This document shows, one piece after another, positions 27,969-61,971 of a stretch of 64,000 nt of DNA (positions within the stretch are counted from its first letter, which is position 1; every line of letters starts with the position of its first letter). Location: positions 124,001-188,000 of the forward strand of contig NZ_JANLCK010000003.1 of NCBI RefSeq assembly GCF_024979315.1, written 5' to 3'. The notes under the pieces were generated by a model that was not told the origin of the DNA, searched no databases, and saw only the letters and a program-made list of their open reading frames with translations. Position numbers and translations under genes: made by a program. Source of the DNA: Herbiconiux oxytropis. GTDB taxonomy: Bacteria; Actinomycetota; Actinomycetes; Actinomycetales; Microbacteriaceae.

Positions 27969-29405
27969 ATGGCCTATGAGTTCGAGCGCAAGCAGCGAGT
28001 CGCCGTCGTCGGAGGAGGCCCCGGGGGGTACGAAGCCGCCATCGCGGGAGCCCAGCTGGGCGCGGAGGTGACCCTCGTCGAGCAGGTGGGCGTGGGCGGA
28101 TCCGCGGTCATCACCGACGTGGTGCCCTCGAAGACGCTCATCGCGGTGGCCGAGGCCACGAACGGCATCGGCGAGGCCGCCGACCTCGGCGTGCAGTTCT
28201 TCTCACGGAACGAGGCCGGGCGCCCCGTGCGGCCCGAGGTCGCCGTCAACCTCTCCCAGGTCAACAAGCGGCTGCTGAGCCTCGCGCGCCAGCAGTCGGA
28301 GGACATGCGGGCCAACCTCATCCGCTCGGGCGTGCGCATCGTCTCCGGCCACGGCCGGCTCGACGGGCCCGACAACGTGATCGTCTCCACATCGTCCGGG
28401 TCCGAGGGCACCGACTTCGATCACATCGAGGCCGACACCGTCGTGGTCTCCGTGGGTGCCAGCCCGCGCATCCTGCCCTCGGCCGTGCCCGACGGCGAGC
28501 GGATCTTCACCTGGACGCAGCTCTACAACCTGCAGTCGGTGCCCGATCACCTCATCGTCGTCGGATCCGGCGTCACCGGTGCCGAGTTCGCCTCGGCGTA
28601 CACCGCGCTCGGCTCCAAGGTGACGCTCATCTCGTCGCGCGACCAGGTGCTGCCGGGTGAAGACGCGGATGCCGCGGCCGTGATCGAGAACGTCTTCAAG
28701 CGCAACGGCATGACGGTGCTCTCGAAGTCGCGTGCCGACTCGGTGGAGCGCACGGCCGACGGAGTCGTGGCCGTGCTGTCGGATGGCACGCGCGTGGAGG
28801 GCTCGCACTGCCTCATGGCGGTCGGATCGATCCCGAACACGCGGGGGATGGGCCTCGAAGAGGCCGGGGTGCAGATGACGGACTCCGGCCACATCCGGGT
28901 CAACCGGGTGGCGCGCACCTCTGTGCCGAACGTCTACGCAGCCGGAGACTGCACGACCTTCCTGCCGCTCGCCTCCGTGGCCTCGATGCAGGGGCGCACC
29001 GCGATGTTCCACGCGATGGGCGACGCCGTGAACCCGACCGAGCCGCGCAACGTGGCCTCGAACATCTTCACGCAGCCGCAGATCGCCACGGTGGGGTGGA
29101 CGCAGCGGCAGATCGAAGAGGGGATCGCGCAGGGCGACATCTACAAGCTGCCCCTGTCGTCGAACCCACGCGCCAAGATGATGGGCATCAAGGACGGTTT
29201 CGTGAAGCTGTTCGCACGCACGGGATCGGGCACCGTCATCGGCGGCGTGGTCGTGGCGCCGAACGCCTCGGAGTTGATCTTCCCGATCGCGCTCGCGGTG
29301 GAGCACCGGCTGACCGTCGACCAGGTGTCGCGTGCCTTCACCGTGTACCCGTCGCTGTCGGGGTCGATCTCGGATGCGGCTCGGGCTATGCATATCGTGC
29401 TGTAG
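27969..29405 (+). CDS. lpdA: NAD(P)H-quinone reductase, LpdA type
   Basis: A 478-residue member of the pyridine nucleotide-disulfide oxidoreductase family, matching the actinobacterial LpdA (Rv3303c-like) branch. The FAD motif VAVVGGGPGGYEAA is at the N-terminus, the NAD motif VVGSGVTGAEFASAY in the middle, and VYAAGDCTTFLPLASVAS before the interface domain. The redox-disulfide region reads GGSAVITDVVPSKTL with no cysteine, so it cannot be a lipoamide dehydrogenase and is better called a quinone reductase. GGAGG sits directly before the start. A structured repeat begins at its stop codon. Confidence 0.9.
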   Translation: MAYEFERKQRVAVVGGGPGGYEAAIAGAQLGAEVTLVEQVGVGGSAVITDVVPSKTLIAVAEATNGIGEAADLGVQFFSRNEAGRPVRPEVAVNLSQVNKRLLSLARQQSEDMRANLIRSGVRIVSGHGRLDGPDNVIVSTSSGSEGTDFDHIEADTVVVSVGASPRILPSAVPDGERIFTWTQLYNLQSVPDHLIVVGSGVTGAEFASAYTALGSKVTLISSRDQVLPGEDADAAAVIENVFKRNGMTVLSKSRADSVERTADGVVAVLSDGTRVEGSHCLMAVGSIPNTRGMGLEEAGVQMTDSGHIRVNRVARTSVPNVYAAGDCTTFLPLASVASMQGRTAMFHAMGDAVNPTEPRNVASNIFTQPQIATVGWTQRQIEEGIAQGDIYKLPLSSNPRAKMMGIKDGFVKLFARTGSGTVIGGVVVAPNASELIFPIALAVEHRLTVDQVSRAFTVYPSLSGSISDAARAMHIVL

Positions 29406-29520
29406 CTTCTGCTGCGCCGGTCCTCGCCCGGCGCAGGCTACATGCGGTGCCGTCGTCGTGCGGCGTCGCTGCGCGGCGCCACCCGGCGTCGGTACCGCTC
29501 CGGGTCGTCGGGTGCGGCCC
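29403..29520 (+). repeat. Dispersed structured repeat, copy 1
   Basis: It begins with the TAG stop of the lpdA-like gene. A GCGCCGG/CCGGCGC hairpin (29414-29434) and a nine-base spacer AGGCTACAT precede a 55-base hairpin (29444-29498) with 25-base arms and a CTGCG loop. CTCCGGGTCGTCGGGTGCGG follows. It separates this gene from the convergent oxidoreductase and probably terminates transcription. Confidence 0.8.
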
Positions 29521-29539
29521 GTTGCGTTGCTCGCGTGCG

Positions 29540-30538
29540 TTAGTGGGTGGCGGCTAGAAGGGTGTCGCAGAGGGTCATCGTGGCTGCGTTGTCCGCGGCG
29601 GTGGGGGCCTCGCCTCCGGCGGCGGCGCCGTCGACGGCCGCCGAGAAGGCGGCGAGCTCTGCTACGAAGCCGCGGAGGTGGAGGTCTCGGGCTGTGCCGG
29701 ACATGGCGCTCTCGGCCGGGGTGAAGGCCTCGGTGCGTTCCGTCAGGGACGTGGAGGTGGGGGCGGCGTCATCGGGGGCGAGCCGGTGGAGGCGGAGCTC
29801 GGCGTTGTCGAGGGTGGTGGCGTGGCCGCGGTCGCCGGTGACCACGAGGCGCTCCGTCTCGCTCGTGCGGGAGGGGACGCCGGCGAGGGAGAGGGTGCCG
29901 GCGATGCCGGAGTCGAAGCGGATCGCCGCCGAGAGGGCCACGTGCGAGCCCTCGCTCGTGCTGATGGCCGAGACCGAGACTGCCTCACCGAAGAGGAAGC
30001 GCGTGAGGTCGATCATGTGGATCGCCGCGAGCGTCACGAACTCCTCGTCGTCGCGGCAGAAGGGAGTGCTGTCGCAGGCGAACTCGAGGGAGAACGAGCG
30101 GAGGGTGCCGAGCGCGCCATCCGTCATCACCGAGCGGAGCTGCCGGTAGATCGGGGCGTGGCGCTTCATGAAGCCGACCACGGCGATCCGCTCGGCTGCC
30201 GCCGCGGCATCCGCAGCGGTCTGCGCCTCGGCCGGGGTCAGGCCGAGCGGCTTGTCGACGAACACGTGCTTGCCTGCGGCGAGGGCCTCCAGGGTGAGGC
30301 GGAGCTGGTCGGCAGGCTGGGCGACGATCACGACCGCGTCGAGCGACGCATCCGCGAGCAGCTCGGAGGCCGAACCGTACGGTGTGCCCTCGGAGCCGAA
30401 GCGGAGGAGGGCCGCGCGTGAGCGCTCGACATCTCGGGTCGCCAGAGCTGCGATCGGCTGGCCGGCGAGCCCCATCGACGGCAGGATGTTCGTGCTCGCG
30501 TGGAAGCCGGCGCCGATCACGCCGAGGCGGGGCGGCAT
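29540..30538 (-). CDS. Gfo/Idh/MocA-family oxidoreductase
   Basis: A 332-residue NAD(P)-dependent dehydrogenase of the glucose-fructose oxidoreductase/inositol dehydrogenase family. The Rossmann motif LGVIGAGFHASTNI is at the N-terminus, and VFVDKPLGLTPAEAQT contains the conserved catalytic Lys-Pro. The C-terminal alpha/beta domain shows HMIDLTRFLFGE. The substrate, probably a sugar or cyclitol, cannot be read. It starts three bases after the acyl-CoA carboxylase alpha gene in the same direction, so it is probably co-transcribed, an odd metabolic pairing. Confidence 0.87.
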   Translation of the reverse strand: MPPRLGVIGAGFHASTNILPSMGLAGQPIAALATRDVERSRAALLRFGSEGTPYGSASELLADASLDAVVIVAQPADQLRLTLEALAAGKHVFVDKPLGLTPAEAQTAADAAAAAERIAVVGFMKRHAPIYRQLRSVMTDGALGTLRSFSLEFACDSTPFCRDDEEFVTLAAIHMIDLTRFLFGEAVSVSAISTSEGSHVALSAAIRFDSGIAGTLSLAGVPSRTSETERLVVTGDRGHATTLDNAELRLHRLAPDDAAPTSTSLTERTEAFTPAESAMSGTARDLHLRGFVAELAAFSAAVDGAAAGGEAPTAADNAATMTLCDTLLAATH

Positions 30539-30541
30539 CCG

Positions 30542-32338
30542 CTAGGCGGTGATGTCGAGGAGCACATGGCCCGACGAGACCGTGGCACCGACGACCGCGG
30601 AGACGTTGGCGATCGTGCCGTCCTTGTGGGCGGTGATCGGCTGCTCCATCTTCATGGCCTCGAGCACCAGCACGAGGTCGCCCTTGACGACGGCGTCGCC
30701 CTCGGCGACCGCGAGCTTCACCACAGTGGCCTGCATCGGGGCCTTGACCGAGTCACCGGTGGCGGTCGAACCGCCCACCGTTCCCGCACCACGGCGCTTG
30801 GGCGGCGCACCGGCTGTCGCGCCCGCCGCACGCGCGGACGTGCCCCCGACGCGTGCCCCCGCCGCGACCAGGCGCGCGGGGAGCACGACCTCCACGCGCT
30901 TGCCGGCGACCTCCACGATGACCGTGCGGCGCTCGGGAGCGGGCTCGGCGTCTTCGAGCGAACCGGACCACGGCTCGGCCGGGTTGTCGTACTCGGTCTC
31001 GATCCAGCGGGTGTAGACGGAGAAGGGCTCGCCGTCGGCCGGCGCGAAGGCGGGGTTCCGCACGACGTCGCGGTGGAACGGGAGCACCGTGGGGAGCCCC
31101 GCCACCTCGAACTCGTCGAGGGCGCGGCGGGAGCGCTCGAGCGCATCCTCCCGGCTGGAGCCGGTGACGATGAGCTTGGCGAGCAGGGAGTCGAACGATC
31201 CGGAGATCACGTCGCCGGCCTGCACGCCCGAGTCGACGCGCACGCCGGGGCCGCCGGCGGGCTTGAAGACGTGCACGGGGCCGGGGGAGGGCAGGAAGCC
31301 ACGACCCGGGTCCTCACCGTTGATGCGGAACTCGAACGAGTGGCCGTGCGGCACCGGATCGGCGTAGTCGAGCACGCCGCCCTCGGCGAGCCGGAACTGC
31401 TCGCGCACGAGGTCGATACCCGTGATCTCCTCCGAGACCGGATGCTCGACCTGCAGTCGCGTGTTGACCTCGAGGAACGAGACGGTGCCGTCTTTGCCGA
31501 TCAGGAACTCGCACGTGCCGGCACCGAGGTAGCCGACCTCCTTGAGGATGGCCTTCGACGACTCGTAGAGCAGCGTGGTCTGCCACTCGGTGAGGAAGGG
31601 CGCCGGCGCCTCCTCCACGAGCTTCTGGTGCCGGCGCTGCAGCGAGCAGTCGCGGGTGGAGACGACCACGACGTTGCCGTGCGCATCCGCGAGGCACTGG
31701 GTCTCGACGTGGCGCGGCTGGTCGAGGTACTTCTCCACGAAGCACTCGCCGCGACCGAACGCCGCGATGGCCTCACGGGTGGCCGACTCGAAGAGCTCGG
31801 GCACCTCCTCGAGTGTGCGGGCCACCTTGAGGCCGCGGCCGCCGCCGCCGAAGGCCGCCTTGATGGCGACCGGCAGGCCGTGCTCGGCCACGAAGTCGAG
31901 CACGTCGGCGGCACCCGAGACGGGGTCGATGGTGCCGGGGGCGAGGGGGGCGCCGACCTTCTCGGCCACGTGGCGCGCCGAGACCTTGTCGCCGAGCTTC
32001 TCGATGGCCTCGGGGGAGGGGCCGATCCAGGTGAGGCCCGCGCCGATGACGGCACGAGCGAAGTCGGCGTTCTCAGCCAGGAACCCGTAGCCGGGGTGCA
32101 CGGCGTCGGCTCCGGAGCGGCGGGCCACCGACAGGATCTTCTCGATCACGAGGTACGTCTCGGCGCTCGAGGTGCCCTCGAGGGCGTAGGCCTCGTCGGC
32201 GAGCTGGGCGTGCAGGGCGTCGCGGTCCTGGTCGGCGTAGACCGCCACGGAGGCGATCCCGCTGTCGCGGGCGGCCCGGATGACTCGAACGGCGATCTCG
32301 CCCCGGTTGGCGATGAGGACCTTGGTGATTCTCGGCAT
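30542..32338 (-). CDS. Acyl-CoA carboxylase alpha subunit (biotin carboxylase plus BCCP)
   Basis: A 598-residue fusion as in actinobacterial AccA3. The biotin carboxylase part spans about 1-450, with [18 protein letters not shown], the ATP-grasp loop [25 protein letters not shown] and [19 protein letters not shown]. An Ala/Gly-rich linker follows, and the C-terminal biotinyl domain carries EAMKMEQ with the biotin Lys. It carboxylates biotin for transfer to acetyl- or propionyl-CoA by a beta subunit. Beta (52662) and epsilon (38921) candidates and biotin ligase are all in this window but in separate transcripts. Confidence 0.95.
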
Positions 32339-32461
32339 GATTTCCCTAGCTTATTGCCGAGGGGCATCCCACCTTTGGCACGTACCTCCAAAAATGCCTC
32401 GGTGACCCTGGCGAGTGCCGACAAGCAGGGCGCGCTTCGAGTGCTGTGAGAGGATGCCCGC

Positions 32462-33364: not shown

Positions 33365-33391
33365 CGCCGCCGCGCGCATCCGCCGCCCTCA

Positions 33392-33480: not shown

Positions 33481-33492
33481 GGCGGGGCGGGC

Positions 33493-34191: not shown

Positions 34192-34232
34192 GGTGTCGGC
34201 CTTCGTGGAGCGGGGTGTGGGATGCTCGGAGG

Positions 34233-38920: not shown

Positions 38921-39148
38921 TCAGCCCGAGAACGAACGCCAGACCCCGGGGCCAGGATGCAGGGGGCCGCGGGGGGCCCGCTGGCTCCGTTCCCAGGCCG
39001 AGGGCTCGATGAGCACCTCGGAGTGCAGCTCGTCGAGCTCCTCCTCGACCGCGGCGTCGAGAACCGCGGTGACCGCGGCGAGCTCTTCGGCGGTGATGCC
39101 GGACGAGACCACCTGAAGGGGGGTGTCCGGGAGGTTCGATTCGTCCAC
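38921..39148 (-). CDS. Acyl-CoA carboxylase epsilon subunit
   Basis: A 75-residue protein with the typical layout of the actinobacterial epsilon subunit. A helical acidic segment (GITAEELAAVTAVLDAAVEE) leads to a C-terminal WERSQRAPRGPLHPGPGVW stretch with the conserved Trp, Arg and Pro residues. The subunit stabilises the AccA3-AccD5/AccD4 complex. It is usually encoded beside a beta subunit, whereas here the beta gene lies 13 kb away. The start is GTG (MDESNLPD), seven bases after TAGCCT, so the mRNA is probably leaderless. Confidence 0.8.
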   Translation of the reverse strand: MDESNLPDTPLQVVSSGITAEELAAVTAVLDAAVEEELDELHSEVLIEPSAWERSQRAPRGPLHPGPGVWRSFSG

Positions 39149-39155
39149 ATCGACG

Positions 39156-39165
39156 AGGCTACATT
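39156..39165. promoter_or_regulatory. Overlapping divergent -10 elements (epsilon subunit and MprF-like)
   Basis: On the minus strand TAGCCT (39161-39156) ends seven bases before the epsilon GTG. On the plus strand TACATT (39160-39165) would start a transcript near 39172, leading to the MprF-like gene. The two hexamers share two bases, so only one polymerase could occupy the site at a time. Confidence 0.5.
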
Positions 39166-39196
39166 AGAACCGAGCAACCAAAGGGGAATCGCCGGC

Positions 39197-41722
39197 ATGC
39201 AGAAGACCATCGCATTCGTGGGGCGGTACCTCGCGACGGTTCCGCTCAGCATCGGCTTCGCCGTGCTCATCGTCGTCACCTCCCTCGCCGCAGGAACCTT
39301 CTTCGGCCCCGCCTCCGAGGTCACCCAGAAGACGTGGGCGGCCGGGGTCACGACCACGGTCGACGCCGGGCACTGGTGGACCATCCTCACCGCGATGTTC
39401 ATCCCCTGGGACCCGTTCCAGCTCGTCGCGGGCGTCGTGTTCTCGCTCGTGCTCCTCGGTGTGGCGGAGCGGCTGCTCGGCCGGCGCCGCCTGATCCTCG
39501 CGTTCTTCGCCACGGGCATCCTGGGCGTGGGCCTCGGTGTGCTGCTGCAGTGGCTCGGCTCGCTCGCCGGCGAGTGGTGGGCCGACGGCACGAGCATCGA
39601 CCTCACGGTCGACCCGCTCACCCCCATCGTCGGCTCCCTGCTCGTGGCGAGCGGCATGATGGGGCCCCTCTGGCGGCGGCGGGTGCGGCTCGTGGCCTTC
39701 GGCTTCCTCATCATGTTCGCCCTCTACGTGGGCGACACCTCCACCGTCTACCGCCTGATCGCGGGCATCGCCGGGCTCGTCATCGGCTACCTTCTCTCGG
39801 CGCGGCGCGGGCAGAAGATGCTCTGGCTGAAGAGCTCGTTCGGCGAGGTGCGCGTGCTCATCGCCACGATCGTGCTGATCACGGCGGTGGGCCCGCTGGT
39901 GTCGTGGCTCGACCCCTCCGGCAGCGGAGCGTTCGGGCTCGCGGGGAGCTTCTACGGCGACATCTTCCCGAGCGCCTCGGACATCTCGTCGCTCTGCTCG
40001 ACCGCCACCTCTCAGGTCTGCGACGACGTCAAGAAGCTCTCCGCCCTCGGCGGCGTCGGGCCGATCGTGCAGACCTTCGTGCCGCTCGCCCTGCTGCTCG
40101 TGGCCGCCTGGGGGCTCCGCAAGGGCCGCCGCTTCGCGCTCTGGCTCGGCATCGTCACCAACCTCGCCATGATCGCGCTCGCGCTGGTGTTCCTCGGTCT
40201 CGTGGGCAGCTTCGTGCTCGGCGACACGGCCACCACCGACGACCTGCCGGCGCTCCAGGCCATCGACATCGGCGAGTACGCGGTGTGGCTCGGCTCCACG
40301 GTGCTCGTGCCGCTCGCCGTCGCCATCCTGCTGTTCGTCAACCGCCGTCGGTTCGCCCTCAAGGCGCCGCGGGAGGCGTTCATCCGCTTCGCCGTGATCG
40401 TGGCGGGGGCCTTCGCCGCCCTCTCGCTGATCTACATCGTGGCGTGCATCCTGACCCTCACCTCGCTGACGCCCGCCGGCACCACGGTGGTCGAGGTCGT
40501 GTTCGACGTGCCTCGCCGGTTCCTCCCCGTCACCCTCGTGGGCGTCACCGGAGACGTCATCATCCCGCCGCCGAGCCCCACCCTGTTCGTCTTCCACTGG
40601 GTGGGACCGGTGTTCTGGATCGTCTTCACCCTCGCCGCCTTCCAGCTCATCGCCTCGATGGAGCAGCGCGTGCAGGTGGGCGACCACCAGCGCATCCGCG
40701 CCCTGCTCCGCCGTGGCGGCGGTGGCACGCTCGGCTGGATGACCACCTGGCCCGGCAACGTGTACTGGTTCAATGAGGCCGGGGATGCCGCGGTCGCCTA
40801 CCGTGTGATCAACGACGTCGCCATCACGATGTCCGACCCCGTCTGCGCCCCCGGCGCCGAGCGGCAGACCGTGCGCGACTTCGCGCGCTTCTGCGACAGC
40901 CACAGCTGGATCCCCGTGTTCTACAGCGTGCACTCGCAGTACCTGCCCTTCTTCGAGGAGATGGGCTGGTCGCACATGTCGGTGGGCGAAGAGACGCTCA
41001 TGCACCCGCAGACGCTCGAGATGGCGGGCAAGTCGTGGCAGAACGTGCGCTCGTCGCTCAACAAGGGCGTGCGCGAGGGCATGACGACGGTCTGGACGAC
41101 CTACGACGAGCTGTCGCGCTCGATGATCTCGCAGATCAACGCCATCTCGGAGGCCTGGGTCTCCGAGAAGGAGCTGCCCGAGATGGGCTTCACCCTCGGC
41201 GCGCTCGAGGAGATCAAGGATCCGGATGTCGCGCTCATGCTCGCGCTCGACGCCGACGGGCGGATCGCGGCCGTGACCAGCTGGCTGCCGATGTACCGCG
41301 ACGGCGTCGCCGTGGGCTACACGCTCGACTTCATGCGTCGGGGCGACGGATCGATGCCCGGAGTCATGGAGTACCTCATCGCCTCCTCCGCGCTGCACAT
41401 GAAGGAGCTCGGCGTGGAGGTGCTCTCGCTCTCGGGGGCCCCGCTCGCCACCGCCCCGGTGCCGAAGGGCTCCGAGGCGCCAGCGCCGACCGTGATGACG
41501 GAGCTCGCCGACTTCCTCGCCAAGACCCTCGAGCCCGCCTACGGCTTCTCCTCCCTCTTCAAGTTCAAGGCGAAGTTCAACCCCACCTACTCCACGATCC
41601 ACATGGCGTATCCGGATCCGCTGGGGCTCCCGGCGATCGGCGCGGCGATCGGCCGCGCCTACCTCCCGTCGATGTCGGCGAAGGAGACGGTGGCGCTGGT
41701 GCGCACGCTGGCTGGTAAGTAG
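39197..41722 (+). CDS. MprF-like phosphatidylglycerol lysyltransferase-type membrane protein
   Basis: An 841-residue fusion. About eleven to thirteen transmembrane helices cover residues 12-490. The first group (HWWTILTAMFIPWDPFQLV, then LLGVAERLLGRRRLI) resembles a rhomboid-type bundle. The C-terminal 330 residues are a DUF2156/GNAT-fold aminoacyl-phosphatidylglycerol synthase domain (WPGNVYWFNEAGDAAVAYRV, FFEEMGWSHMSVGEETLMHP, KFNPTYSTIHMAYPDP). Such proteins add an amino acid, often lysine, to phosphatidylglycerol and lower the negative surface charge. AAAGGGGA lies about ten bases before the ATG. A structured repeat begins at its stop. Confidence 0.85.
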   Translation: MQKTIAFVGRYLATVPLSIGFAVLIVVTSLAAGTFFGPASEVTQKTWAAGVTTTVDAGHWWTILTAMFIPWDPFQLVAGVVFSLVLLGVAERLLGRRRLILAFFATGILGVGLGVLLQWLGSLAGEWWADGTSIDLTVDPLTPIVGSLLVASGMMGPLWRRRVRLVAFGFLIMFALYVGDTSTVYRLIAGIAGLVIGYLLSARRGQKMLWLKSSFGEVRVLIATIVLITAVGPLVSWLDPSGSGAFGLAGSFYGDIFPSASDISSLCSTATSQVCDDVKKLSALGGVGPIVQTFVPLALLLVAAWGLRKGRRFALWLGIVTNLAMIALALVFLGLVGSFVLGDTATTDDLPALQAIDIGEYAVWLGSTVLVPLAVAILLFVNRRRFALKAPREAFIRFAVIVAGAFAALSLIYIVACILTLTSLTPAGTTVVEVVFDVPRRFLPVTLVGVTGDVIIPPPSPTLFVFHWVGPVFWIVFTLAAFQLIASMEQRVQVGDHQRIRALLRRGGGGTLGWMTTWPGNVYWFNEAGDAAVAYRVINDVAITMSDPVCAPGAERQTVRDFARFCDSHSWIPVFYSVHSQYLPFFEEMGWSHMSVGEETLMHPQTLEMAGKSWQNVRSSLNKGVREGMTTVWTTYDELSRSMISQINAISEAWVSEKELPEMGFTLGALEEIKDPDVALMLALDADGRIAAVTSWLPMYRDGVAVGYTLDFMRRGDGSMPGVMEYLIASSALHMKELGVEVLSLSGAPLATAPVPKGSEAPAPTVMTELADFLAKTLEPAYGFSSLFKFKAKFNPTYSTIHMAYPDPLGLPAIGAAIGRAYLPSMSAKETVALVRTLAGK

Positions 41723-41830
41723 CTGCGCCGCCCCCTGTGCGGCGCAGGCGACATGCGATGCCGGCGTCGGATGGCGTCGCTTCGCGGCGTCATCCGGCGA
41801 CGGTATCGCTCTGGGTCAGCGAGTAGGGCC
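41720..41830 (+). repeat. Dispersed structured repeat, copy 2
   Basis: Starts with the TAG stop of the MprF-like gene. GCGCCGC/GCGGCGC hairpin (41725-41745), spacer AGGCGACAT, then the 55-base hairpin (41755-41809) with loop CTTCG and only one true mismatch in 25 pairs if G-U pairs are allowed. It is nearly identical to copy 3. Confidence 0.85.
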
Positions 41831-41859
41831 TGTTGCGTGGGGGCGACTCGGGGGTGGGG

Positions 41860-52509: not shown

Positions 52510-52548
52510 CCCGACGCGCCCCCGCCCCGTGACGCCCCCACCCAACGG

Positions 52549-52657
52549 GCCCTACTCGCCGACCCAGAGCGATACCGTCGCCGGATGTCGCCGCGAAGCG
52601 ACGCCATCCGACGCCGGCATCGCATGTCGCCTGCGCCGCACGAGGGGCGGCGCAGCC
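52549..52657 (-). repeat. Dispersed structured repeat, copy 3
   Basis: It lies directly downstream of the carboxylase beta gene on the same strand. The GCGCCGC/GCGGCGC hairpin is at 52633-52653 and the 55-base hairpin at 52569-52623, loop CTTCG. It is nearly identical to copy 2 across about 105 bases. This copy follows a TGA stop instead of supplying a TAG. Confidence 0.85.
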
Positions 52658-52661: not shown

Positions 52662-54266
52662 TCACAGCGGGATGTTGCCGTGCTTCTTCGGAGGAAGCGA
52701 CGCGCGCTTCGTCTTGAGGGCTCGAAGGGCCTTCGTGATCGCCACGCGGGTGGCCGCCGGCTCGATGACGCCGTCGAGCTCGCCTCGTTCGGCGGCCAGG
52801 AAGGGGCTCGCCACGTTGTAGGTGTACTCGTTGGCGAGGCGGGTGCGCACGGCCGCGACGTCTTCGCCCGCCTCCTCGGCGCGCTTGATCTCGCCGCGGT
52901 AGAGGATGTTCACGGCGCCCTGACCGCCCATCACCGCGATCTCGGCCGTGGGCCAGGCGAGGTTGATGTCAGCGCCCAGCTGCTTCGACCCCATCACGAT
53001 GTACGCGCCGCCGTAGGCCTTCCGGAGGATGACGGTCACGAGCGGCACGGTCGCCTCGGCGTAGGCGTAGAGCAGCTTCGCGCCACGACGGATGACGCCC
53101 GTCCACTCCTGATCGGTGCCGGGCAGGTAGCCGGGCACGTCGACGAGCGTGAGGATGGGGATGGAGAAGGCGTCGCAGAAGCGCACGAAGCGGGAGGCCT
53201 TCTCGCCGGCCTCGATGTTGAGTGTGCCGGCCATCGAGTTCGGCTGATTGGCCACGATGCCCACCGAGCGGCCCTCGATGCGTGCGAAGCCCACGACGAT
53301 GTTGGGCGCGTAGAGCGGCTGGGTCTCGAGGAACTCAGCCCCGTCGACGAGGTGCTCGATGACGGTGTGCACGTCGTAGGGCTGGTTGGGCGAATCCGGG
53401 ATGATCGTGTTGAGCTTGCGGTCCGCATCCGTGATCTCGAGCTCGACCTCGCTGTCGTAGGAGGGGAGCTCCGCCAGGTTGTTCTGCGGCAGGAAGCTGA
53501 GCAGGGCGCGGGCGTAGTCGAGCGCGTCGTCCTCGTCGCTCGCGAGGTAGTGCGAGACGCCCGAGACGCTGTTGTGGGTGAGGGCGCCGCCGAGCTCCTC
53601 CATGCCGACGTCTTCGCCGGTGACGGTCTTGATGACATCCGGACCGGTCACGAACATCTGACTCGTCTTGTCGACCATGATCACGAAGTCGGTGAGGGCG
53701 GGGGAGTAGACCGCGCCGCCTGCAGCCGGGCCCATGATGATCGAGATCTGCGGGATGACGCCGGACGCGGCCGTGTTGCGGCGGAAGATCTCGCCGTACT
53801 TCCCGAGCGCCACGACACCCTCCTGGATGCGTGCGCCGCCCGAGTCGAGCATGCCGATGATCGGCACGCCGGTCTTCAGCGCGAGATCCATCACCTTGAT
53901 GATCTTCTCGCCGGCGACCTCGCCGAGCGAACCGCCGAAGATCGTGAAGTCCTGCGCGTAGACGGCCACCTGGCGGCCGTGGATGGTGCCCGTGCCCGTG
54001 ACGACGGCGTCGCCGTAGGGCCGCGACTTCTCCATGCCGAAGGCGTGGGTGCGGTGGCGCACGAACTCGTCGATCTCCACGAAGCTGCCGTGGTCGAGCA
54101 GCTGTTCGATGCGCTCGCGGGCGGTCTTCTTGCCGCGCTTGTGCTGCTTCTCGATGGCGGAGGCCCCGGAGGCCGTCACCGCCTCGTGGTATCGGTTCTT
54201 CAGGTCGGCCAGCTTGCCCGCCGTCGTGTACATGTCGGGCTGGTCGGTCGTCGCGTCTTCACTCAC
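52662..54266 (-). CDS. Acyl-CoA carboxylase beta subunit (carboxyltransferase, AccD5/PccB type)
   Basis: A 534-residue carboxyltransferase that moves CO2 from carboxybiotin to propionyl- or acetyl-CoA. Family landmarks are [69 protein letters not shown] and [14 protein letters not shown]. The oxyanion-forming GG pairs are intact. GTG 54266 is preferred as start because TAGAGT ends seven bases before it; a GTG seven codons upstream also exists. The alpha and epsilon subunits are encoded elsewhere in the window, and biotin ligase is divergent. Confidence 0.94.
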
Positions 54267-54273
54267 GCCGTTC

Positions 54274-54343: not shown

Positions 54344-54349
54344 GGCGTC

Positions 54350-55210: not shown

Positions 55211-55221
55211 AGAATGAGGGC

Positions 55222-56013
55222 ATGACCCCGCGCCCCTCCTCCGACGCCACCGAGCGCTTCGGGTGGGGTGCGGCCGGAGCGTCGGCGGATCAGCGCACCA
55301 CGCGCTATCCCGTTCCGCCCGAGTCCGAGCGCGTGCCCTACCCGGCCCCGCCTCCCTACCCCGGGGGCCCGGCGTCCGGCAGCGAGCCCGGTTTCAGCGA
55401 GCCCGGTTCCGCGGAGCCCGGATTCGCCGATCTCGGCTTCGACCAGGGCGACACCGATCCGGGCACGCCCGGCGACGGCCGCGGCGGTGAACCGGATTCC
55501 GTCCACCCCGGCTACGGCGGCTACACCACCTCGGTCGAGCCGACGCCCGAGGCCATCCTCGTGCGCGTGCGCCCGCATGCCCGCCGCCTCACCCTCCCGG
55601 TGCTCATCCTCTTCGCCGCGGCGGCGGCCTACGGCTGGTTCGGCGGACGCTTCGCCGAGGAGTGGCAGAACTGGGCGGCGCTCGCCGCGGCCGGCGCGCT
55701 CGTCTTCTTCGGAACCCTTCTGCCGTTCTTCGCCTGGCTCGGCCACCGCTACACCGTCACCACCCGCCGCATCATCGCCCGCCGGGGTCTCTTCGTGCGC
55801 GACCGCCAGGATCTCTACCTCGCCCGCGTCACCGACGTCCGCCTCCGCCGCACCCCTTTCCAGGCGGCGGCCGCGTGCGGCGACGTTCGGGTCACGGCGG
55901 GCCCCGACCTCACCGTCGTGCTCCACGACATCCCCTCCGCCCGCCTCGTGGCCGACCTCCTCGGCGCCCTCACGGAGCACCCCGCTTCCGCACCCGGCCA
56001 TCCCCGCGAGTGA
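55222..56013 (+). CDS. Bacterial PH-domain membrane protein
   Basis: A 263-residue protein. The first 105 residues are a disordered Pro/Gly/Ser/Glu-rich cytoplasmic region with repeated EPGF/EPGS units. Two transmembrane helices follow (about 120-140 and 148-172). The C-terminal bPH_2 domain contains HRYTVTTRRIIARRGLFVRD and DLYLARVTDVRLRRTPFQ. Proteins of this YdbS-like type are conserved next to birA in actinobacteria, but their role is unknown. TAAAGAATGAGGGC before the ATG combines a -10-like hexamer and a weak ribosome site. Confidence 0.85.
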   Translation: MTPRPSSDATERFGWGAAGASADQRTTRYPVPPESERVPYPAPPPYPGGPASGSEPGFSEPGSAEPGFADLGFDQGDTDPGTPGDGRGGEPDSVHPGYGGYTTSVEPTPEAILVRVRPHARRLTLPVLILFAAAAAYGWFGGRFAEEWQNWAALAAAGALVFFGTLLPFFAWLGHRYTVTTRRIIARRGLFVRDRQDLYLARVTDVRLRRTPFQAAAACGDVRVTAGPDLTVVLHDIPSARLVADLLGALTEHPASAPGHPRE

Positions 56014-56046
56014 CAGTGTCGGTAGCATGAGATAACCTCATGTTCT

Positions 56047-57987
56047 ATGAAGCGATCTTTCGTTCCGTTCATCGCCTTGGGGCTGGTAGCGCTCCTCACA
56101 AGTGCGACTGGAACCGCTGCTGCAGCTTCGCGCGAGTTCGGGATGGTGCGTCTGGCCTCGGTCGCCCCCAACTCCTTCGGAGATGGGGTGGGGGATGTAG
56201 CGGTCGACAGCACCACGCAACGGGCCTTCGTGCTCGACCGGCAGAACGACGCCGTTCAGGTCTATGACATCAGCGGGCCTTCTTTCACTCACCTCGGCAC
56301 CGTGGACGGAGGAGTCGACGTTCCCGTGGCGGCTGTAGTGAACGAGTCGACGCACATGCTCTACCTGGCCGACTCCGATAGGGATTCCATCGTTGTGATC
56401 GATGTCGACCCCGCTTCACCATCGGTCAACACCGTAGTTCGGACGATTCTCACGGGAAGCTCCTCCGTCGGCGGTATCGCAGTCGATGAACTTCGGAATC
56501 GCGTCTTCGTGGCGAATACGGCAGGCAACACGGTGAGCGTTCTCGACGTAACTGCTGGCAGCGGGCCTCAATCGGTCCCAGTCGGCCGAGAGCCTCAGGA
56601 TGTCGTGGTCGATCCACTCACAGGCAAGGCCTACGTGTCGAGCGCTGTGGACTCCTCGATCACCGTCATCAACACAGACGGGTCGTGGACGGCGTGGCCG
56701 CTCGAGAACAGGCCCCAGTTGCTGGCTTACGCCGAGGGCGCTCTCTATGTGTCGACCGACCGGCCGTACGCAGCGCACGTCGACAAGTACTCCCTCGCGA
56801 CGAGCGCGCTCCTCGCGAGTTCGCCTCCGCTGGCGGGCCTGCCCAATGACATCGACGTCGACCCGGCACTCCACGCCGTCTACCTGGTCGACTCGGCCAG
56901 CGGCGTCGCGGGGGTGACGACGTTGAGGACGACGGACCTCTCTCGGGAAGACGACGGACCGGAGGACTACTTCAATTCCGTGGTGATCGAGCCGCGCACG
57001 CATCGGATTCTGGTCGGTGAAACCCCGCGTCTTGCCCGGCCGTCGGAGGTGGTGATGCTCGATCCGCTGCCGCGGCCGCTGCCGTCGGTCGATCGGATCG
57101 ACGGCGCCGATCGGTTCGAGGTGTCGGCGGGGGTTGCCGGCGATGGTTTCGCGTCGGGGGTGCCGGTCGCGTTTGTAACGACAGGGGCGACGTTCGCGGA
57201 TGCACTGGCGGGGTCGGCCGCAGCGGGCGCAGGGCGTGGGCCGGTGCTTCTGGTGTCGCAGAATTCGGTACCGCCAGCGGTGGCGGCGAGGTTGAAGTCG
57301 CTGCGGCCGCAGCGCATCGTCGTTCTCGGGGGCACGGCGAGCGTGAGCGTGGCAGTCGAGAAGAAGCTCGGCGAATTCAGCTCTTCGGTGTCGAGGCTTT
57401 CTGGAGCAGACCGCTACGCGGTGTCGGCGGCGGTCTCGGCCGCGGCGTTCCCGGACGGCGCCGACATCGTGTACCTCGCCTCAGGGGTAGTGTTCTCCGA
57501 CGCGCTCTCCGCCTCGGCTGCTGCAGGTCTCGGTGGCGGTCCGGTGCTGCTGACGAAGAAGGGCAGCACGTCCGCCGAGGTCCTGGCTGAGCTCGGACGA
57601 TTGAAACCCGCCACGGTGATCGTCGTGGGCGGCACGAACACCGTGGACGAGGCGGTGGTGGCGACGCTGCAGGCGACCTGGCCGGTTGTCCGCATCGACG
57701 GAGCCGACCGGTACGCGGTCTCCGGCGCGATCACGGCCAGGACCTTTCCCCAGAGTGCCTACACGATCTATGTCGCATCGGGGGCAGTCTTTCCCGACGC
57801 CCTATCCGGCTCGGCGGCGGCCATCGCGCAAGACGCGCCCGTGCTCCTCGTGCAGAAAGACGGAATTCCCGCCACTGTCGCCGCGCAGCTCGACCGCCTC
57901 AACCCCTACCGCATCGTGGTGCTCGGCGGCACGAACACCGTCTCCGACGCCGTGCAGTCCCAACTCGAGAGCTACCTCCCGCACTGA
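56047..57987 (+). CDS. Secreted beta-propeller protein with three cell-wall-binding repeats (CWB2)
   Basis: A 646-residue surface protein. A signal peptide (about 1-27, MKRSFVPFIALGLVALLTS then AAAAS) is followed by a YVTN-like beta-propeller (about 40-335) with motifs such as NRVFVANTAGNTVSVLDVT and KAYVSSAVDSSITVINTDG. Three CWB2 modules occupy about 347-445, 448-545 and 547-646; each has a GADRY/F-VSA opening, a SDALSASAAA-type centre and a VVLGGT-type ending. CWB2 triplets bind anionic wall polymers. The propeller part uses visibly more A/T-ending codons than neighbouring genes, hinting at separate ancestry. Confidence 0.87.
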   Translation: MKRSFVPFIALGLVALLTSATGTAAAASREFGMVRLASVAPNSFGDGVGDVAVDSTTQRAFVLDRQNDAVQVYDISGPSFTHLGTVDGGVDVPVAAVVNESTHMLYLADSDRDSIVVIDVDPASPSVNTVVRTILTGSSSVGGIAVDELRNRVFVANTAGNTVSVLDVTAGSGPQSVPVGREPQDVVVDPLTGKAYVSSAVDSSITVINTDGSWTAWPLENRPQLLAYAEGALYVSTDRPYAAHVDKYSLATSALLASSPPLAGLPNDIDVDPALHAVYLVDSASGVAGVTTLRTTDLSREDDGPEDYFNSVVIEPRTHRILVGETPRLARPSEVVMLDPLPRPLPSVDRIDGADRFEVSAGVAGDGFASGVPVAFVTTGATFADALAGSAAAGAGRGPVLLVSQNSVPPAVAARLKSLRPQRIVVLGGTASVSVAVEKKLGEFSSSVSRLSGADRYAVSAAVSAAAFPDGADIVYLASGVVFSDALSASAAAGLGGGPVLLTKKGSTSAEVLAELGRLKPATVIVVGGTNTVDEAVVATLQATWPVVRIDGADRYAVSGAITARTFPQSAYTIYVASGAVFPDALSGSAAAIAQDAPVLLVQKDGIPATVAAQLDRLNPYRIVVLGGTNTVSDAVQSQLESYLPH

Positions 57988-58023
57988 CAGGGGCCGACTC
58001 GACCGCCATCAGCCCCGATGTGC

Positions 58024-58242
58024 TCAGTCGGTGGCGTCTTCGAGTCGGAATCCGACCTTCAGGGTCACCTGGAAGTGGGCCACTTCGCCGTTTTCGAGGT
58101 CGCCGCGGGTGCCCGTGACCTCGAACCAGTCGATGTTGCGGATCGTCTGCGAAGCGCGCTCGATGCCGTTCCGGATCGCCGCATCGGTTCCCTGGGGCGA
58201 CGTGCCTACGATCTCGGTCACTCGGTAGGTGTGGTTCGCCAT
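58024..58242 (-). CDS. Dodecin (flavin-storage protein)
   Basis: A 72-residue protein of the dodecin family, which forms hollow dodecamers that bind flavin or CoA. HTYRVTEIVGTSPQGTDAAI, the central Trp in RNIDWFEVTGTRG that stacks on the flavin, and VAHFQVTLKVGFRLED match the family end to end. The start MANHTYRV was chosen because the dodecin strand begins there; AAAGG lies about ten bases upstream. It stands alone between the CWB2 protein and divergent purK. Confidence 0.93.
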   Translation of the reverse strand: MANHTYRVTEIVGTSPQGTDAAIRNGIERASQTIRNIDWFEVTGTRGDLENGEVAHFQVTLKVGFRLEDATD

Positions 58243-58365
58243 GGTGCTGCTGCCTTTCGTCGGGGAGGTTCTGTACAACTCACCGTACGGTCACCCGCGG
58301 TGCCGGTGTGCTTGATTACGGACTTCGCCCGAAGCTGGCCCGGTCGGGCAGACCGCGCCCGCCGG

Positions 58366-58371
58366 TAGGCT
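58366..58371 (+). promoter_or_regulatory. -10 element TAGGCT before purK
   Basis: TAGGCT ends six bases before the GTG at 58378. The intervening GGAGGG is too close to the start for normal ribosome spacing, so a leaderless mRNA is favoured. Confidence 0.55.
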
Positions 58372-58377
58372 GGAGGG

Positions 58378-59514
58378 GTGACTTTTCGACTAGGCGTCAT
58401 CGGTGGCGGACAACTGGCGCGCATGATGGTGCCCCCCGCGATCGAGCTGGGGATCGACATCCGCGTGCTCGCCGAGAGCGAGGGGATGTCGGCCGCGATT
58501 GCCGCCACCGGGGTCGGCGACTACACCGACCTCGAGACCGTCCGGGCGTTCGCGAAGACCGTCGACGTGGTCACGTTCGACCACGAGCACGTGCCTCAAG
58601 CAGTGCTCCGCGCCCTCGTCGCCGACGGCGTGGCCGTGCATCCGGGACCCGACGCCCTGCAGTTCGCGCAGGACAAGCTCGCCATGCGCGAGCGCCTCGG
58701 CGAGCTCGGCATCCCGATGCCCGACTGGGCGCGGGTCGAGACGCCGGACGAGCTCGACGCCTTCCTCGCCGACCACGGCGGCCGCGGCGTCGTGAAGACC
58801 GCCCGTGGCGGTTACGACGGCAAGGGCGTGCGCGTCGTGAGCGCCGCCGATCAGGCCGAGGACTGGTTCGCCGCCCTCGCCGAGGACGGCCGCGGGGGAG
58901 CGCTTCTCGTGGAGGAGCTCGTCGAGTTCCGCCGAGAGCTCGCCCAGCTCGTAGCCCGGCGGCCGAGCGGCGACGTGACCCTCTGGCCCGTCGTCGAGTC
59001 GGTGCAGAAGGACGGCGTCTGCGCGGAGGTCATCGCCCCCGCCCCCGGATCCGCCGGGAAGGTCGCCGAGATGGCTGCGCACATCGGCACCACGATCGCC
59101 GAGGAGCTCGGCGTCACCGGTGTGCTGGCCGTGGAGCTCTTCGAGACGACGGATGAGCGCATCCTCGTCAACGAGCTCGCCATGCGACCGCACAACACCG
59201 GGCACTGGACGATCGACGGCTCGACCACGAGCCAGTTCGAGCAGCACCTCCGGGCCGTGCTCGACCTGCCGTTCGGCGCTACGGGACACCGCGAGCCGTG
59301 GTCGGTGATGATCAACATCCTGGGCGGGCCGACGGATGGCGACCTCGACACCCCGTTGCGGCAGGCGGCCGCCGACCAGCCGACCGCGAAGATCCACCTC
59401 TACGGCAAGGAGCCCCGCCCCGGCCGCAAGGTCGGACACGTGACGGTCTCGGGCGAGGAGCTCGACGACGTCGTCTTCCGGGCGAGGGCCGCCGCCGCGT
59501 TCTTCGAGGACTGA
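58378..59514 (+). CDS. purK: 5-(carboxyamino)imidazole ribonucleotide synthase
   Basis: A 378-residue ATP-grasp enzyme. It joins bicarbonate to aminoimidazole ribonucleotide in purine synthesis. LGVIGGGQLARMMVPPAIEL is the N-terminal signature, KTARGGYDGKGVRVV the ATP lid, and ELAMRPHNTGHWTIDGS the catalytic metal loop. The start is GTG (MTFRLGVIGG). It is separated from purE by about 270 bases that hold a strong hairpin, so the two pathway neighbours probably have separate promoters. Confidence 0.96.
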   Translation: MTFRLGVIGGGQLARMMVPPAIELGIDIRVLAESEGMSAAIAATGVGDYTDLETVRAFAKTVDVVTFDHEHVPQAVLRALVADGVAVHPGPDALQFAQDKLAMRERLGELGIPMPDWARVETPDELDAFLADHGGRGVVKTARGGYDGKGVRVVSAADQAEDWFAALAEDGRGGALLVEELVEFRRELAQLVARRPSGDVTLWPVVESVQKDGVCAEVIAPAPGSAGKVAEMAAHIGTTIAEELGVTGVLAVELFETTDERILVNELAMRPHNTGHWTIDGSTTSQFEQHLRAVLDLPFGATGHREPWSVMINILGGPTDGDLDTPLRQAAADQPTAKIHLYGKEPRPGRKVGHVTVSGEELDDVVFRARAAAAFFED

Positions 59515-59568
59515 GCCGCCGACCTCCGGCCCACCGCCCACCGGCCCCCTTCACCTCTCTTCTCCTCC

Positions 59569-59615
59569 GAAACGACGGAGCCTCGGCCGCTGTGGCCCCG
59601 AGGCTCCGTGGTTTC
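59569..59615 (+). terminator. Terminator after purK
   Basis: GAAACGACGGAGCCTCGG pairs with CCGAGGCTCCGTGGTTTC, leaving one mismatch in 18 positions. The arm sequence is shared with the sdh operon terminator (2500). A weaker echo of the right arm (CTCCGTAGTCTCCTCC) follows at about 59632. Confidence 0.85.
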
Positions 59616-59771
59616 CTCCAACGCACCTGAACCTCCGTAGTCTCCTCCCGAGGTGGGTGGTGGAAGGACCGCACGGGGACGGGATCGTCCACCGGACGGA
59701 CGGACCCCCGCCGCCGCCGACACACTCCCGGCACGCCCGACGCGCTACCGGGCCCCCGGAGACCCAGCACC

Positions 59772-59777
59772 TACCAT
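59772..59777 (+). promoter_or_regulatory. -10 element TACCAT before purE
   Basis: TACCAT ends seven bases before the ATG at 59785 and contains part of an alternative upstream ATG (59776), so it favours the downstream start. Confidence 0.55.
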
Positions 59778-59784
59778 GGGCACC

Positions 59785-60285
59785 ATGCCCGAGAACAACC
59801 CCGTCGTGGGCGTCGTCATGGGGTCGGATTCCGACTTCTCCGTCATGAGCGACGCCGTGCAGGTGCTGAAGGACTTCGGCGTGCCCCACGAGGTGCAGGT
59901 CGTCTCGGCGCACCGCACCCCCGAGAAGATGATCGACTACGGCAAGTCGGCGCGCGGCCGCGGGCTCAAGGTCGTCATCGCGGGCGCCGGCGGGGCCGCT
60001 CATCTGCCCGGCATGATCGCCTCCGTGACCACCCTGCCCGTGGTCGGCGTGCCCGTGCCGCTGGCCAAGCTCGACGGCCTCGACTCCCTGCTCTCCATCG
60101 TGCAGATGCCCGCGGGCATCCCGGTCGCGACCGTCTCGATCGGCGGCGCCAAGAACGCCGGCCTCATCGCTGTCAGCATTCTCTCGACCGGTGATGATGA
60201 GCTTGCCGCTGCCCTCGACCGCTATCGCAGCGGGCTCGCCGACCTCGTCGCCCAGAAGAACGAAGACCTCCAGACCCGCCTATGA
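59785..60285 (+). CDS. purE: 5-(carboxyamino)imidazole ribonucleotide mutase
   Basis: A 166-residue class I PurE. It converts N5-CAIR to CAIR, the step after Pur[33 protein letters not shown] and [15 protein letters not shown] are the active-site signature segments, and [19 protein letters not shown] follows. Length is standard. The stop overlaps the ATG of the LCP protein (ATGA), so a wall enzyme is translationally coupled to purine synthesis, a linkage seen in other actinobacteria. Confidence 0.96.
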
Positions 60286-61703
60286 CCAGCATGACCGCAG
60301 GCCCCGCCACTCGGAGCGGATACCAGACCGGCTCGCCGTCGGCCAACGCCACCGCGAGCCCGATCCGCTACCCCGACACCTCGTCGCCCAAGACGATGAC
60401 GGTGCGCGGCTGGTGGCTCGTGGTGCTCAACGTGCTCATCCCGGGCTCGGCCCAGGTGCTCGCGGGAAACCGTAAGCTCGGCCGGTTCGGTCTGGGCTGC
60501 ACGCTCGTGCTGTGGGCGCTCGCGATCATCGCCGGCGCCGTCTACTTCATCTGGCCGCAGGTCATCTTCTCGATCGCCACGAACCTCGTGCCGCTCGTGA
60601 TCGTGCAGGTGCTGCTCGTGGCCTATGCGGTGCTCTGGGTCGTGCTGACCCTGGATGCGCTGCGGCTCGTGCGCCTGGTGCGGGTGGGCCCGCGGGCACG
60701 TCCCGCCATCGCGATCTTCTCGGTGCTCCTCATGGTGGTCACCGCGGGAGGCGCCGGAGCGGCGGCGTACATCGCCAACGTGGCCCAGTCGGGCCTTGCG
60801 TCCGTGTTCAGCGTGCAGGCGGCCGCCGAGCCGCCCGTGAACGGCCGCTACAACATCCTGCTGCTCGGTGGCGACGCCGGCCCGGATCGCGACGGCATGC
60901 GCCCCGACAGCATGACCGTGGTCTCGATCGAGGCCGACACCGGGCGAGCCACGATGATCGGCATCCCGCGCGACCTGCAGCAGGTGCCGATCGCCGCCGA
61001 TTCGCCCCTCGTGGGGTCGGAGTACGCCCCCGAGGGCGTCTACGACTGCGGCAGCGACTGTCAGGTGAGCTTCCTCTACCCCCGCGTGATGGCCTTCAAC
61101 CAGGACCTCTATCCCAACGCCGAGGCCGAGGGCTCCAACCCCGGTGTCGAGGCGACGAAGGATGCCATCGAGGGCGCACTCGGGCTCACCATCCAGTACT
61201 ACGTGATGATCGACATGCAGGGCTTCTCCGACCTCATCGACGCCCTCGGCGGTGTGACGATCGACGTCAAGGAGGAGCTGCCCATGGGTGGCGACGAGAA
61301 CCTCAACGAGGTCGAGGGCTGGATCTGGCCCGGCGTGCAGCACATGGACGGCTACACGGCCCTCTGGTATGCCCGCTCGCGCCACACCACCAGCGACTAC
61401 GACCGCATGGAGCGCCAGCGCGAGCTCCAGACCGCCATCCTCAACCAGTTCGAGCCCGTCAACGTGCTCACCAAGTTCGAGGGCATCGTGCAGGCCGGCA
61501 CCCAGGTGGTGCAGACCGACATCCCCCAGTCGACCCTCAGCTACTTCATCGACCTCGCCCTGAAGACCAAGGACCTCCCCATCGACCATGTGGAGCTCAC
61601 GCCCCCCCTGATCGACCCGGAGTACCCCGACTGGGCGCTGGTGCAGCAGACGGTCGCGGATGCGCTGGTGCTCTCGACGGCCACGGAAGCGCCGGTTCAG
61701 TAG
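60282..61703 (+). CDS. LytR-CpsA-Psr (LCP) family wall-polymer ligase
   Basis: A 473-residue membrane-anchored protein. After a polar N-terminus, four hydrophobic helices lie at about 40-150. The extracytoplasmic LCP domain runs from about 185, with [34 protein letters not shown] and [20 protein letters not shown], which contain the conserved Asp and Arg residues that grip the lipid-linked pyrophosphate. LCP enzymes transfer polysaccharide or teichoic polymers to peptidoglycan. The neighbouring rhamnose and glycosyltransferase genes fit that role. Copy 4 of the structured repeat starts at the stop codon. Confidence 0.93.
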
Positions 61704-61812
61704 CCGCGCCGGTCCCCGCCCGGCGCGGGCGACATGCGGTGCACCTGTCGGGTCACGTCGCTTCGCGGCGCGCCCCGGCAGATGTACCGCTCCGGGTCGT
61801 CGAGTACGGCCC
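61701..61812 (+). repeat. Dispersed structured repeat, copy 4
   Basis: It begins with the TAG stop of the LCP gene. CGCGCCGG/CCGGCGCG hairpin (61705-61727), spacer GGCGACAT, 55-base hairpin (61736-61790) with loop CTTCG. Several arm pairs differ from copies 1-3 by changes on both sides that keep pairing. It faces copy 5. Confidence 0.85.
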
Positions 61813-61881
61813 GATACGTTCGGATCCCCCAAGAGGTGGGAGCGGGTCTGAAAGCCGCAGGCCTTTGTTTCTCAGCCCAAG

Positions 61882-61971
61882 GCGGTACCGGTGCCTGGGT
61901 GCGCCGCGCAGCGACGCAGCCAGACACCGGCACCGCATGTCGCCCGCGCCGCAGAGGCGGCGGCGCGGCTA
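61882..61971 (-). repeat. Dispersed structured repeat, copy 5
   Basis: On the minus strand it begins with the TAG stop of the glycosyltransferase. CGCGCCGC/GCGGCGCG hairpin (61945-61967), spacer GGCGACAT, 55-base hairpin (61882-61936) with loop CTGCG and 24 of 25 pairs formed. Between copies 4 and 5 lie about 70 unassigned bases. Confidence 0.85.

Follow-up and report, generated by a model that had tools for sequence, protein, structure and literature searches.

The best-studied dispersed palindromic repeats are tied to RAYT (REP-associated tyrosine) transposases, and in the case of repetitive extragenic palindromic (REP) sequences and REPINs that are accompanied by a RAYT, the genome contains a Y1 (HUH) transposase that is usually flanked by the repeats. 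Structured, dispersed and lineage-restricted repeats of about 150 nucleotides, including bcr1, are also found in the Bacillus cereus group. In the main text of a study of GTAG REPs (PMC3733652), these are described as dispersed intergenic palindromes of 20-40 base pairs that also form dimers, fall into many families of 20-100 units distributed unevenly across species, and carry at their termini a TAG that often serves flanking open reading frames as a stop codon. Here we describe a family of comparable behavior from the soil bacterium Herbiconiux (H. oxytropis), first seen as five copies of a multi-hairpin element in a stretch of 64,000 nucleotides (hereafter, the window; G000:C23:124001-188000, where G000 is this organism’s own genome of 4,127,253 bases in 32 contigs). 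Our best reading is that it represents a new REP-like family, which also resembles miniature inverted-repeat transposable elements (MITEs): small, non-coding, restricted mainly to Herbiconiux, mobile over evolutionary time, settling behind the ends of genes, and carrying an RNA fold that is under selection. We assign that reading a probability of roughly 0.6.

All five window copies lie at the positions and on the strands reported by a first-pass annotation, which had been made by eye from the sequence of the window. Each has the short, GC-rich hairpin recognized at that time (H1; 9 base pairs with a 7-nucleotide loop), followed by a spacer confirmed as GGC(G/T)ACAT and then by a long hairpin (H2). 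The reported length of H2, 55 nucleotides, was correct, while its stem comprises 26 base pairs closed by a TTC or TGC loop, and not 25 closed by CTTCG or CTGCG, because the last C-G pair had been counted as part of the loop. Two further features had been missed: a third, small hairpin (H3; GGGTC..GGCCC) on the 3' side of H2, and the upstream gene’s stop codon, which lies 0 to 6 nucleotides ahead of H1 in all five copies. Most copies in the genome as a whole follow the order H1 (9 base pairs), GCGACAT, H2, YCYGGGTC..GGCCC (H3) and GTTGCGTT, with H2 occurring either in a long form of 26 base pairs (19 copies, alignment A4) or in a short form of 16 base pairs (9 copies, alignment A5).

The full element, as found in relatives, is about 150-170 nucleotides long, and consists of a leader (approximately TAGCTGTGCTAGCTGCC), an additional hairpin (H0), H1, GCGACAT, an H2 of 35 or 55 nucleotides, and the GGGTC..GGCCC of H3. 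H0, which is mostly missing from the copies in H. oxytropis, measures about 15 base pairs in other species and has in many of them the tip GUGC-UUC-GCGC. The tail that follows H3 contains T residues, but no T-run. Partial and tandem forms include two 46-nucleotide units of H1 plus linker ahead of a full copy (G000:C1:496048-496258; L018, L044), two additional H1 units in G201 (L162), two full copies in tandem (L075), and a short form in G155 in which H0 is joined to H3. Copies also occur as inverted pairs in which the 3' ends face each other and each copy lies beside its own gene, as at 61701+/61882- in the window and at C27:175389/175583, 205354/205508 and 290301/290548.

Searches with blastn returned 47 matches in the own genome at E<=10, and a structural model (R1) returned 39 at E<=0.001, one of which is a reverse-strand echo, so that the element occupies 38 places. 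A search of related genomes with a model of the covarying structure, suggested when the copies were first noticed, yielded R1 matches in 14 of the 16 genomes of the genus (77, 63, 44, 43, 41, 39, 27, 24, 18, 18, 16, 14, 6, 3, 0 and 0 matches; counts across multiple genomes were obtained with stricter filters or from limited numbers of scored candidates, and include some reverse-strand echoes). A second model (R2) added one copy in G207, where R1 had found none, leaving G011 as the only one in which no copy was found. Across 199 genomes of the family, R1 under strict filters matched only within Herbiconiux; across 398 genomes of the family, R2 gave weak matches in genera g45 (six genomes, best 3e-7), g53, g75 and g8. 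Among named genomes the element pattern was found at 59 loci, each of which carries the label Herbiconiux, ‘Microbacteriaceae bacterium 3FA27C10’ or ‘Corynebacterium-like bacterium B27’. These loci were chosen by an exact pattern, so that counts drawn from them favor canonical copies, and near relatives contribute their orthologous copies as separate entries.

The repeat had not been recognized at first sight as a named element. Rfam gave no match at gathering score in the window, and a permissive Rfam scan of six loci gave four matches, all of them sub-threshold and to unrelated families. In the combinations that were run, blastn gave no match for copy 2 against plasmids, for the L069 pair against phages, or for the L218 array of a cousin element (described below) against plasmids, and a literature search on Herbiconiux or Microbacteriaceae, conducted mostly without subscription journals, found no account of the repeat.

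The folded shape seems to matter, since the stems keep pairing while their letters change. The window copies fold better than the average of their shuffled versions (z of -3.5 to -5.7, with 1 of 200 shuffles doing as well for copy 1 and none for the others); both sides have changed at 7 of the 26 pairs of H2, and 5 of the 26 are unpaired in at least one copy. The double changes first proposed, at pairs 22, 18 and 15 counted from the loop (pairs 4, 8 and 11 from the base), are all correct. Larger alignments were tested against shuffled and slid controls and by mutual information, all of which leave the relatedness of the copies in place. In A4 (the 19 long copies of the own genome), 94.1% of cells pair, and both sides have changed at 18 of 40 pairs, amounting to 81 cells against a shuffled mean of 26.6, a value reached in none of 500 shuffles; one further measure, that of additional pair types, was equalled by 46 of 500. 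In A9 (31 short copies with H0 from eight assemblies, out of 54 that a rough flag marked as having H0), double changes affect 24 of 46 pairs, amounting to 131 cells against 34.4, with all five measures exceeding every one of 500 shuffles, and with all slid versions of the structure scoring far lower. When RNAalifold was given the A9 alignment alone, it returned 41 pairs forming four hairpins at the proposed places, 20 of them with double changes, and omitted the lowest pairs of H2. Corrected mutual information placed proposed pairs at all ten of the top ten column pairs in A9 and at 18 of the top 30 (0.2 expected), and at eight of the top ten in the long set. Two pairs of H2 (73-104 and 74-103) are unpaired in 16 and 17 of the 31 rows, and part of that hairpin is therefore an internal loop. 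The proposal of a dispersed family under selection on an RNA or cruciform structure, drawn initially from five copies, is thus supported, since the covariation holds in these larger alignments.

The stems of A9 further indicate which strand folds. They contain G.T combinations in 154 cells and A.C in 21, and most of the G.T cells are wobbles that recur at set positions: at 16-24 in H0 (29 of 31 copies), at 83-94 in H2 (31 of 31), at 113-127 in H3 (31 of 31) and at 78-99 in H2 (22 of 31). Because each G.T wobble would be an A.C mismatch on the opposite strand, it is the strand reading GCGACAT that folds, whether the folded molecule is RNA or single-stranded DNA. Within the variable central part of the long H2, A.C cells equal or outnumber the variable G.T cells, so that the strand signal rests on the recurrent wobbles.

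The placement of the copies was established with genes called, at the copies and in relatives, by a home-made codon-usage gene finder and not from curated annotation. A total of 106 copies were classified, comprising 30 from the 38 places in the own genome (where one, C5:85722, was miscentred near a contig end) and 76 from the pattern-selected loci. Convergent genes flank 58 of them; between tandem genes there are 24 in sense and 15 in antisense orientation, and between divergent genes there are 5, with 4 unclassified. The nearest upstream gene is in sense orientation for 90 of 113 copies, and in 78 of these a fixed point of H1 lies within 75 nucleotides of its stop codon. In 35 of the 78 the distances from stop codon to this point cluster at 2-4 nucleotides (9 copies), 40 (11), 44-45 (8) and 49 (7), because the TAG of the leader, or a TGA variant of it, serves as the stop codon. 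The stop is TAG in 45 of the 78, as compared to 143 of 461 background genes (Fisher p 9e-6). The leader is also present where no sense gene ends, and therefore belongs to the element; in many copies a TAG, often as GTAG or CTAG, is found at or a few nucleotides from the first hairpin, while TGA or other leaders also occur. Separately, genomes that do not carry the element at particular places (L149, L150, L151, L163 and L167) were seen to contain other strong palindromes between the same or neighboring genes, perhaps bidirectional terminators, some of which lie near a stop codon.

A copy transcribed together with its upstream gene would form the start of that gene’s 3' untranslated region (3'-UTR), with the leader TAGCTGTGCTAGCTGCC, or its TGA variant, often providing the stop codon. 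Copies may then be retained because the folded RNA would act as the 3' end of the message, by blocking exonucleases and/or, through H3 plus the tail, by terminating transcription. Their movement would have been brought about in trans by an enzyme that recognizes the hairpins, and that either has since been lost from these genomes or is of an unrecognized kind. The family is, on this basis, probably a transposable repeat that doubles as an mRNA tail; we infer from sequence both the present-day mobility of the copies and their function as RNA.

Evidence for dispersal comes from comparisons both within and between genomes. Within one assembly, three pairs of copies agree at 98-99% of positions along some 136 nucleotides, while their flanks are 42-56% alike, as compared to a mean of 49% for random flanks. 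At three sites in the window, occupancy varies among the 16 genomes. The 29.4 kb site holds copies in G000, in G209 and (of a different type) in G199, and in G155 it holds the short H0-H3 form. Copies directly follow the 41.7 kb gene in G000 and G209; G205 has one there that is truncated near a contig end, and G093 has one located about 1.2 kb further on. The region at 61.7 kb is occupied, at an E of 1e-5 or better, in 8 of the 16 genomes, by copies that vary in number and orientation. Among copy pairs from different assemblies that share flanking genes, 37 have the same and 35 the opposite orientation, and in distant species orthologous copies resemble each other roughly as much as randomly paired copies do, scattering above and below the mean. 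This pattern of orientation and similarity fits recurrent insertion into favored convergent regions, or old inverted pairs from which one member has been lost. In one comparison between nearest relatives, the same intergenic region carries the element in opposite orientations (L012, at G000:C5:26113, and L088, in G209), in both cases beside the palindrome GAATTACACCCGTGTAAC.

A possible, if rather unlikely, alternative is that the copies do not move, and are instead old cis-acting 3'-UTR elements (terminators or mRNA stabilizers) that have been inherited and occasionally duplicated, their stems drifting under structural selection until orthologues became no more alike than other copies. The preference of the strand test for a single strand agrees with that account, as does the behavior of six orthologous sites shared in the same orientation with the nearest relative: the copies there are 91-97% alike, as compared to a mean of 71% for non-orthologous copies, and the element changes more slowly (731 of 781 positions identical, 93.6%; 87-97% per site) than third codon positions (4458 of 5175, 86.1%; Fisher p 6e-10) or other intergenic sequence (882 of 1009, 87.4%; p 1e-5). 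The L012/L088 pair (75 of 118 within the element) was left out of these counts because its copies lie in opposite orientation. The slower change of the element is counted in favor of the mobile reading as well. What such inheritance accommodates poorly is the range of 0 to 77 matches within one genus, with none found in G011; the near-equal division of shared-site pairs between the two orientations; the presence of 15 antisense and 5 divergent placements among the 106; and the near-identical copies amid unrelated flanks in one assembly.

Several observations nevertheless weigh against a family that moves and is selected as RNA: (i) between tandem genes, the excess of sense over antisense copies (24 versus 15) is not a significant bias (p 0.20), and 5 copies lie between divergent genes; (ii) at one of the six orthologous sites the element is 87% alike, which is not above third codon positions; (iii) many orthologous intergenic regions are occupied in several species, above a rough expectation for scattered insertion, which also agrees with old 3'-UTR elements and could mean that these are old fixed copies; (iv) two comparisons between near relatives revealed no clean empty site or target duplication, because gene content or orientation differs at both of the sites compared; and (v) the transposase domain Y1_Tnp (PF01797), in a search that did not extend to other transposase families, was found neither in the own genome nor in 15 of the 16 genomes of the genus, its sole match (G011:C11:24558-24878; L137) being in the genome for which neither R1 nor R2 finds a copy. 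No terminal inverted repeat was seen by eye in the alignments.

The cousin element found in three other genera of the same family (g45, g53 and g57) has the H1 hairpin in common (GCCGGTCCYYGCCCGGC), and continues with GCRGTCGGCT instead of GCGACAT and H2. A pattern of H1 plus GTCGGCT matched in 13 of 398 genomes, all from these three genera, and a reversed control pattern matched none in the genomes listed. Among 36 cousin copies, 19 follow a sense stop codon at 3-61 nucleotides and 8 follow one at a greater distance (mostly as later tandem units), 8 follow an antisense gene, and for 1 no gene is within reach. Tandem arrays comprise 2-3 units with a period of 102-125, and a GCGTT tail closes some of the copies. 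The host gene’s last codons and stop recur as a perfect inverted copy (13-27 base pairs) between stop codon and H1 in 5 of 20 sense copies, as compared to 2 of 358 swapped controls, which are probably homologous genes that passed the filter. Arms of at least 9 base pairs were found in 5 of 20 copies against 17 of 358 swaps, and the excess was smaller (6 of 20 against 32 of 200) under a looser control that allowed G.T pairs and homologous genes. At six loci in g45 (L199, L201, L215, L216, L217 and L237), the arms of a hairpin at the stop codon consist of the host’s last codons and their inverted non-coding copy, perfect over up to 27 base pairs. In one host gene, which we take from the reading of its end to be a 6-phosphogluconate dehydrogenase, a codon difference between species (GTC/GTG) is mirrored in the non-coding arm (L215 and L216 versus L226/L200).

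These findings allow a broader and more speculative scheme, for which our confidence is low: a modular gene-end system of Microbacteriaceae, spreading without a recognized transposase, that would supply the host’s stop codon and, in the cousins, install an inverted copy of its last codons (up to 27 base pairs, perfect), as might result from snap-back copying at insertion, with a shared recognition hairpin after it. Once folded, the transcript, with its fixed U.G pairs, would act as a portable mRNA 3' end.

Templated copying could also account for the covariation itself, if template switching at replication forks were to copy one arm of a DNA palindrome onto the other, with no selection on RNA. 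The arms of the element are long and near-perfect (15-26 base pairs), and the cousin arms, made up of a coding end and its exact inverted copy, are what such copying would produce. Yet correction of this kind would erase G.T mismatches, whereas, of 31 copies drawn from eight assemblies, nearly every one keeps U.G at the same places in the stems. The linkers GCGACAT and TGGGTC, located in a short stem or in none, are likewise conserved. In Herbiconiux, moreover, the inverted copy of the host gene is absent, and coding ends pair with the spacer no more than swapped controls do (arms of at least 9 base pairs in 1 of 78 versus 79 of 5982). We consider this explanation of the covariation improbable, and continue to favor a mobile repeat with a selected RNA fold.

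With respect to known repeats, bcr1 and its counterparts are similar by description only, and their hosts belong to a different phylum. The inverted dimers characteristic of REPINs and of bacterial interspersed mosaic elements (BIMEs) are present in the Herbiconiux family as several pairs, and the family resembles GTAG REPs, as portrayed in the main text of PMC3733652, in being dispersed, intergenic and uneven among species, in having, in many copies, a TAG at or near the foot of the first hairpin, and in often supplying stop codons. It differs from the single palindrome of 20-40 base pairs described there in having three to four hairpins over 120-170 nucleotides, and from GTAG REPs in its stems of 15-26 base pairs with strong covariation, in its conserved linkers GCGACAT and GGGTC, in that no RAYT was found in 15 of 16 Herbiconiux genomes, and in its actinobacterial host, the string ‘actinobacter’ being absent from that main text. 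The CGTC-type REPs treated in the same text are also dispersed palindromes, and have no transposase gene associated with them; their stems measure 8-9 base pairs with loops of 4-5 nucleotides, and they are not known to have a multi-hairpin layout or a stop-codon leader.

The first-pass annotation had named a match to a catalogued REP family as a finding that would overturn its claim, and the outcome was divided: the behavior is that of REPs or REPINs, and the association with a transposase was not found. Because the family fails on transposase and on size, it is not filed as a REP. A classical REP family moved by its own RAYT (Y1) transposase would explain the TAG by the hairpin foot, the inverted pairs, the intergenic location and the element-supplied stop codons (the last of which are reported for GTAG REPs in the main text of PMC3733652), but it is very improbable, since the only genome of the genus in which Y1_Tnp was found has no detectable copies and since each element is built from three to four long hairpins, where a REP has a single palindrome of 20-40 base pairs. 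A candidate partner gene was also rejected: the genes beginning with MDW beside three copies are two kinds of ordinary genes, as judged by reading their translations and without a systematic partner search. A multi-copy family of genes for trans-acting small RNAs would fit the stable, conserved fold and conserved unpaired segments, and is scarcely credible given that the copies are set against the stop codons of unrelated genes, that truncated and tandem partial copies occur, and that one genome of the genus has no copy that could be found.

The combination of long multi-hairpin copies, strand-specific covariation, a leader that doubles as a stop codon and the absence of any RAYT found allows two old questions to be separated: how such a repeat spreads without a dedicated transposase, and whether its RNA fold is under selection as the 3' end of an mRNA. 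Herbiconiux, with at least 16 sequenced species-level genomes in which the same intergenic sites can be found both with and without a copy, is a genus in which both are directly testable. The positions of the window copies and of the adjoining stop codons are collected below.

Table 1. Element copies in the window and the stop codons beside them (window coordinates)
Feature	Position	Strand	Remarks
Stop codon TAG, gene 27969-29405 (pyridine nucleotide-disulphide oxidoreductase)	29403..29405	+	6 nt 5' of copy 1 H1
Copy 1, hairpin H1	29412..29436	+	
Copy 1, hairpin H2	29444..29498	+	55 nt
Copy 1, H3 plus tail	29501..29529	+	H3 29501-29521
Stop codon TAG, gene 38957-41722 (phosphatidylglycerol lysyltransferase-type)	41720..41722	+	abuts copy 2 H1
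Copy 2	41723..41838	+	H1 41723-41747, linker GCGACAT, H2 41755-41809, H3 41813-41831, tail
Stop codon TGA, gene 54275-52662 (carboxyl transferase)	52662..52664	-	6 nt before copy 3 H1
Copy 3	52540..52657	-	H1 52655-52631, H2 52623-52569, H3 52565-52547, tail
Stop codon TAG, gene 60282-61703 (LytR_cpsA_psr)	61701..61703	+	abuts copy 4 H1
Copy 4	61704..61822	+	H1 61704-61728, H2 61736-61790, H3 61794-61812, tail
Copy 5, inverted partner of copy 4	61861..61968	-	H1 61968-61944, H2 61936-61882; tail diverged
Stop codon TAG, convergent gene 63108-61969 (glycosyltransferase)	61969..61971	-	abuts copy 5 H1

The eight genes that flank these copies are ordinary and mutually unrelated. Elsewhere in the window, a comparison of positions 55821-57988 with L081 5073-7994 showed two neighboring stretches of the nearest relative to be 71-74% identical to the gene at 56143-57987, as though that gene had been duplicated there.

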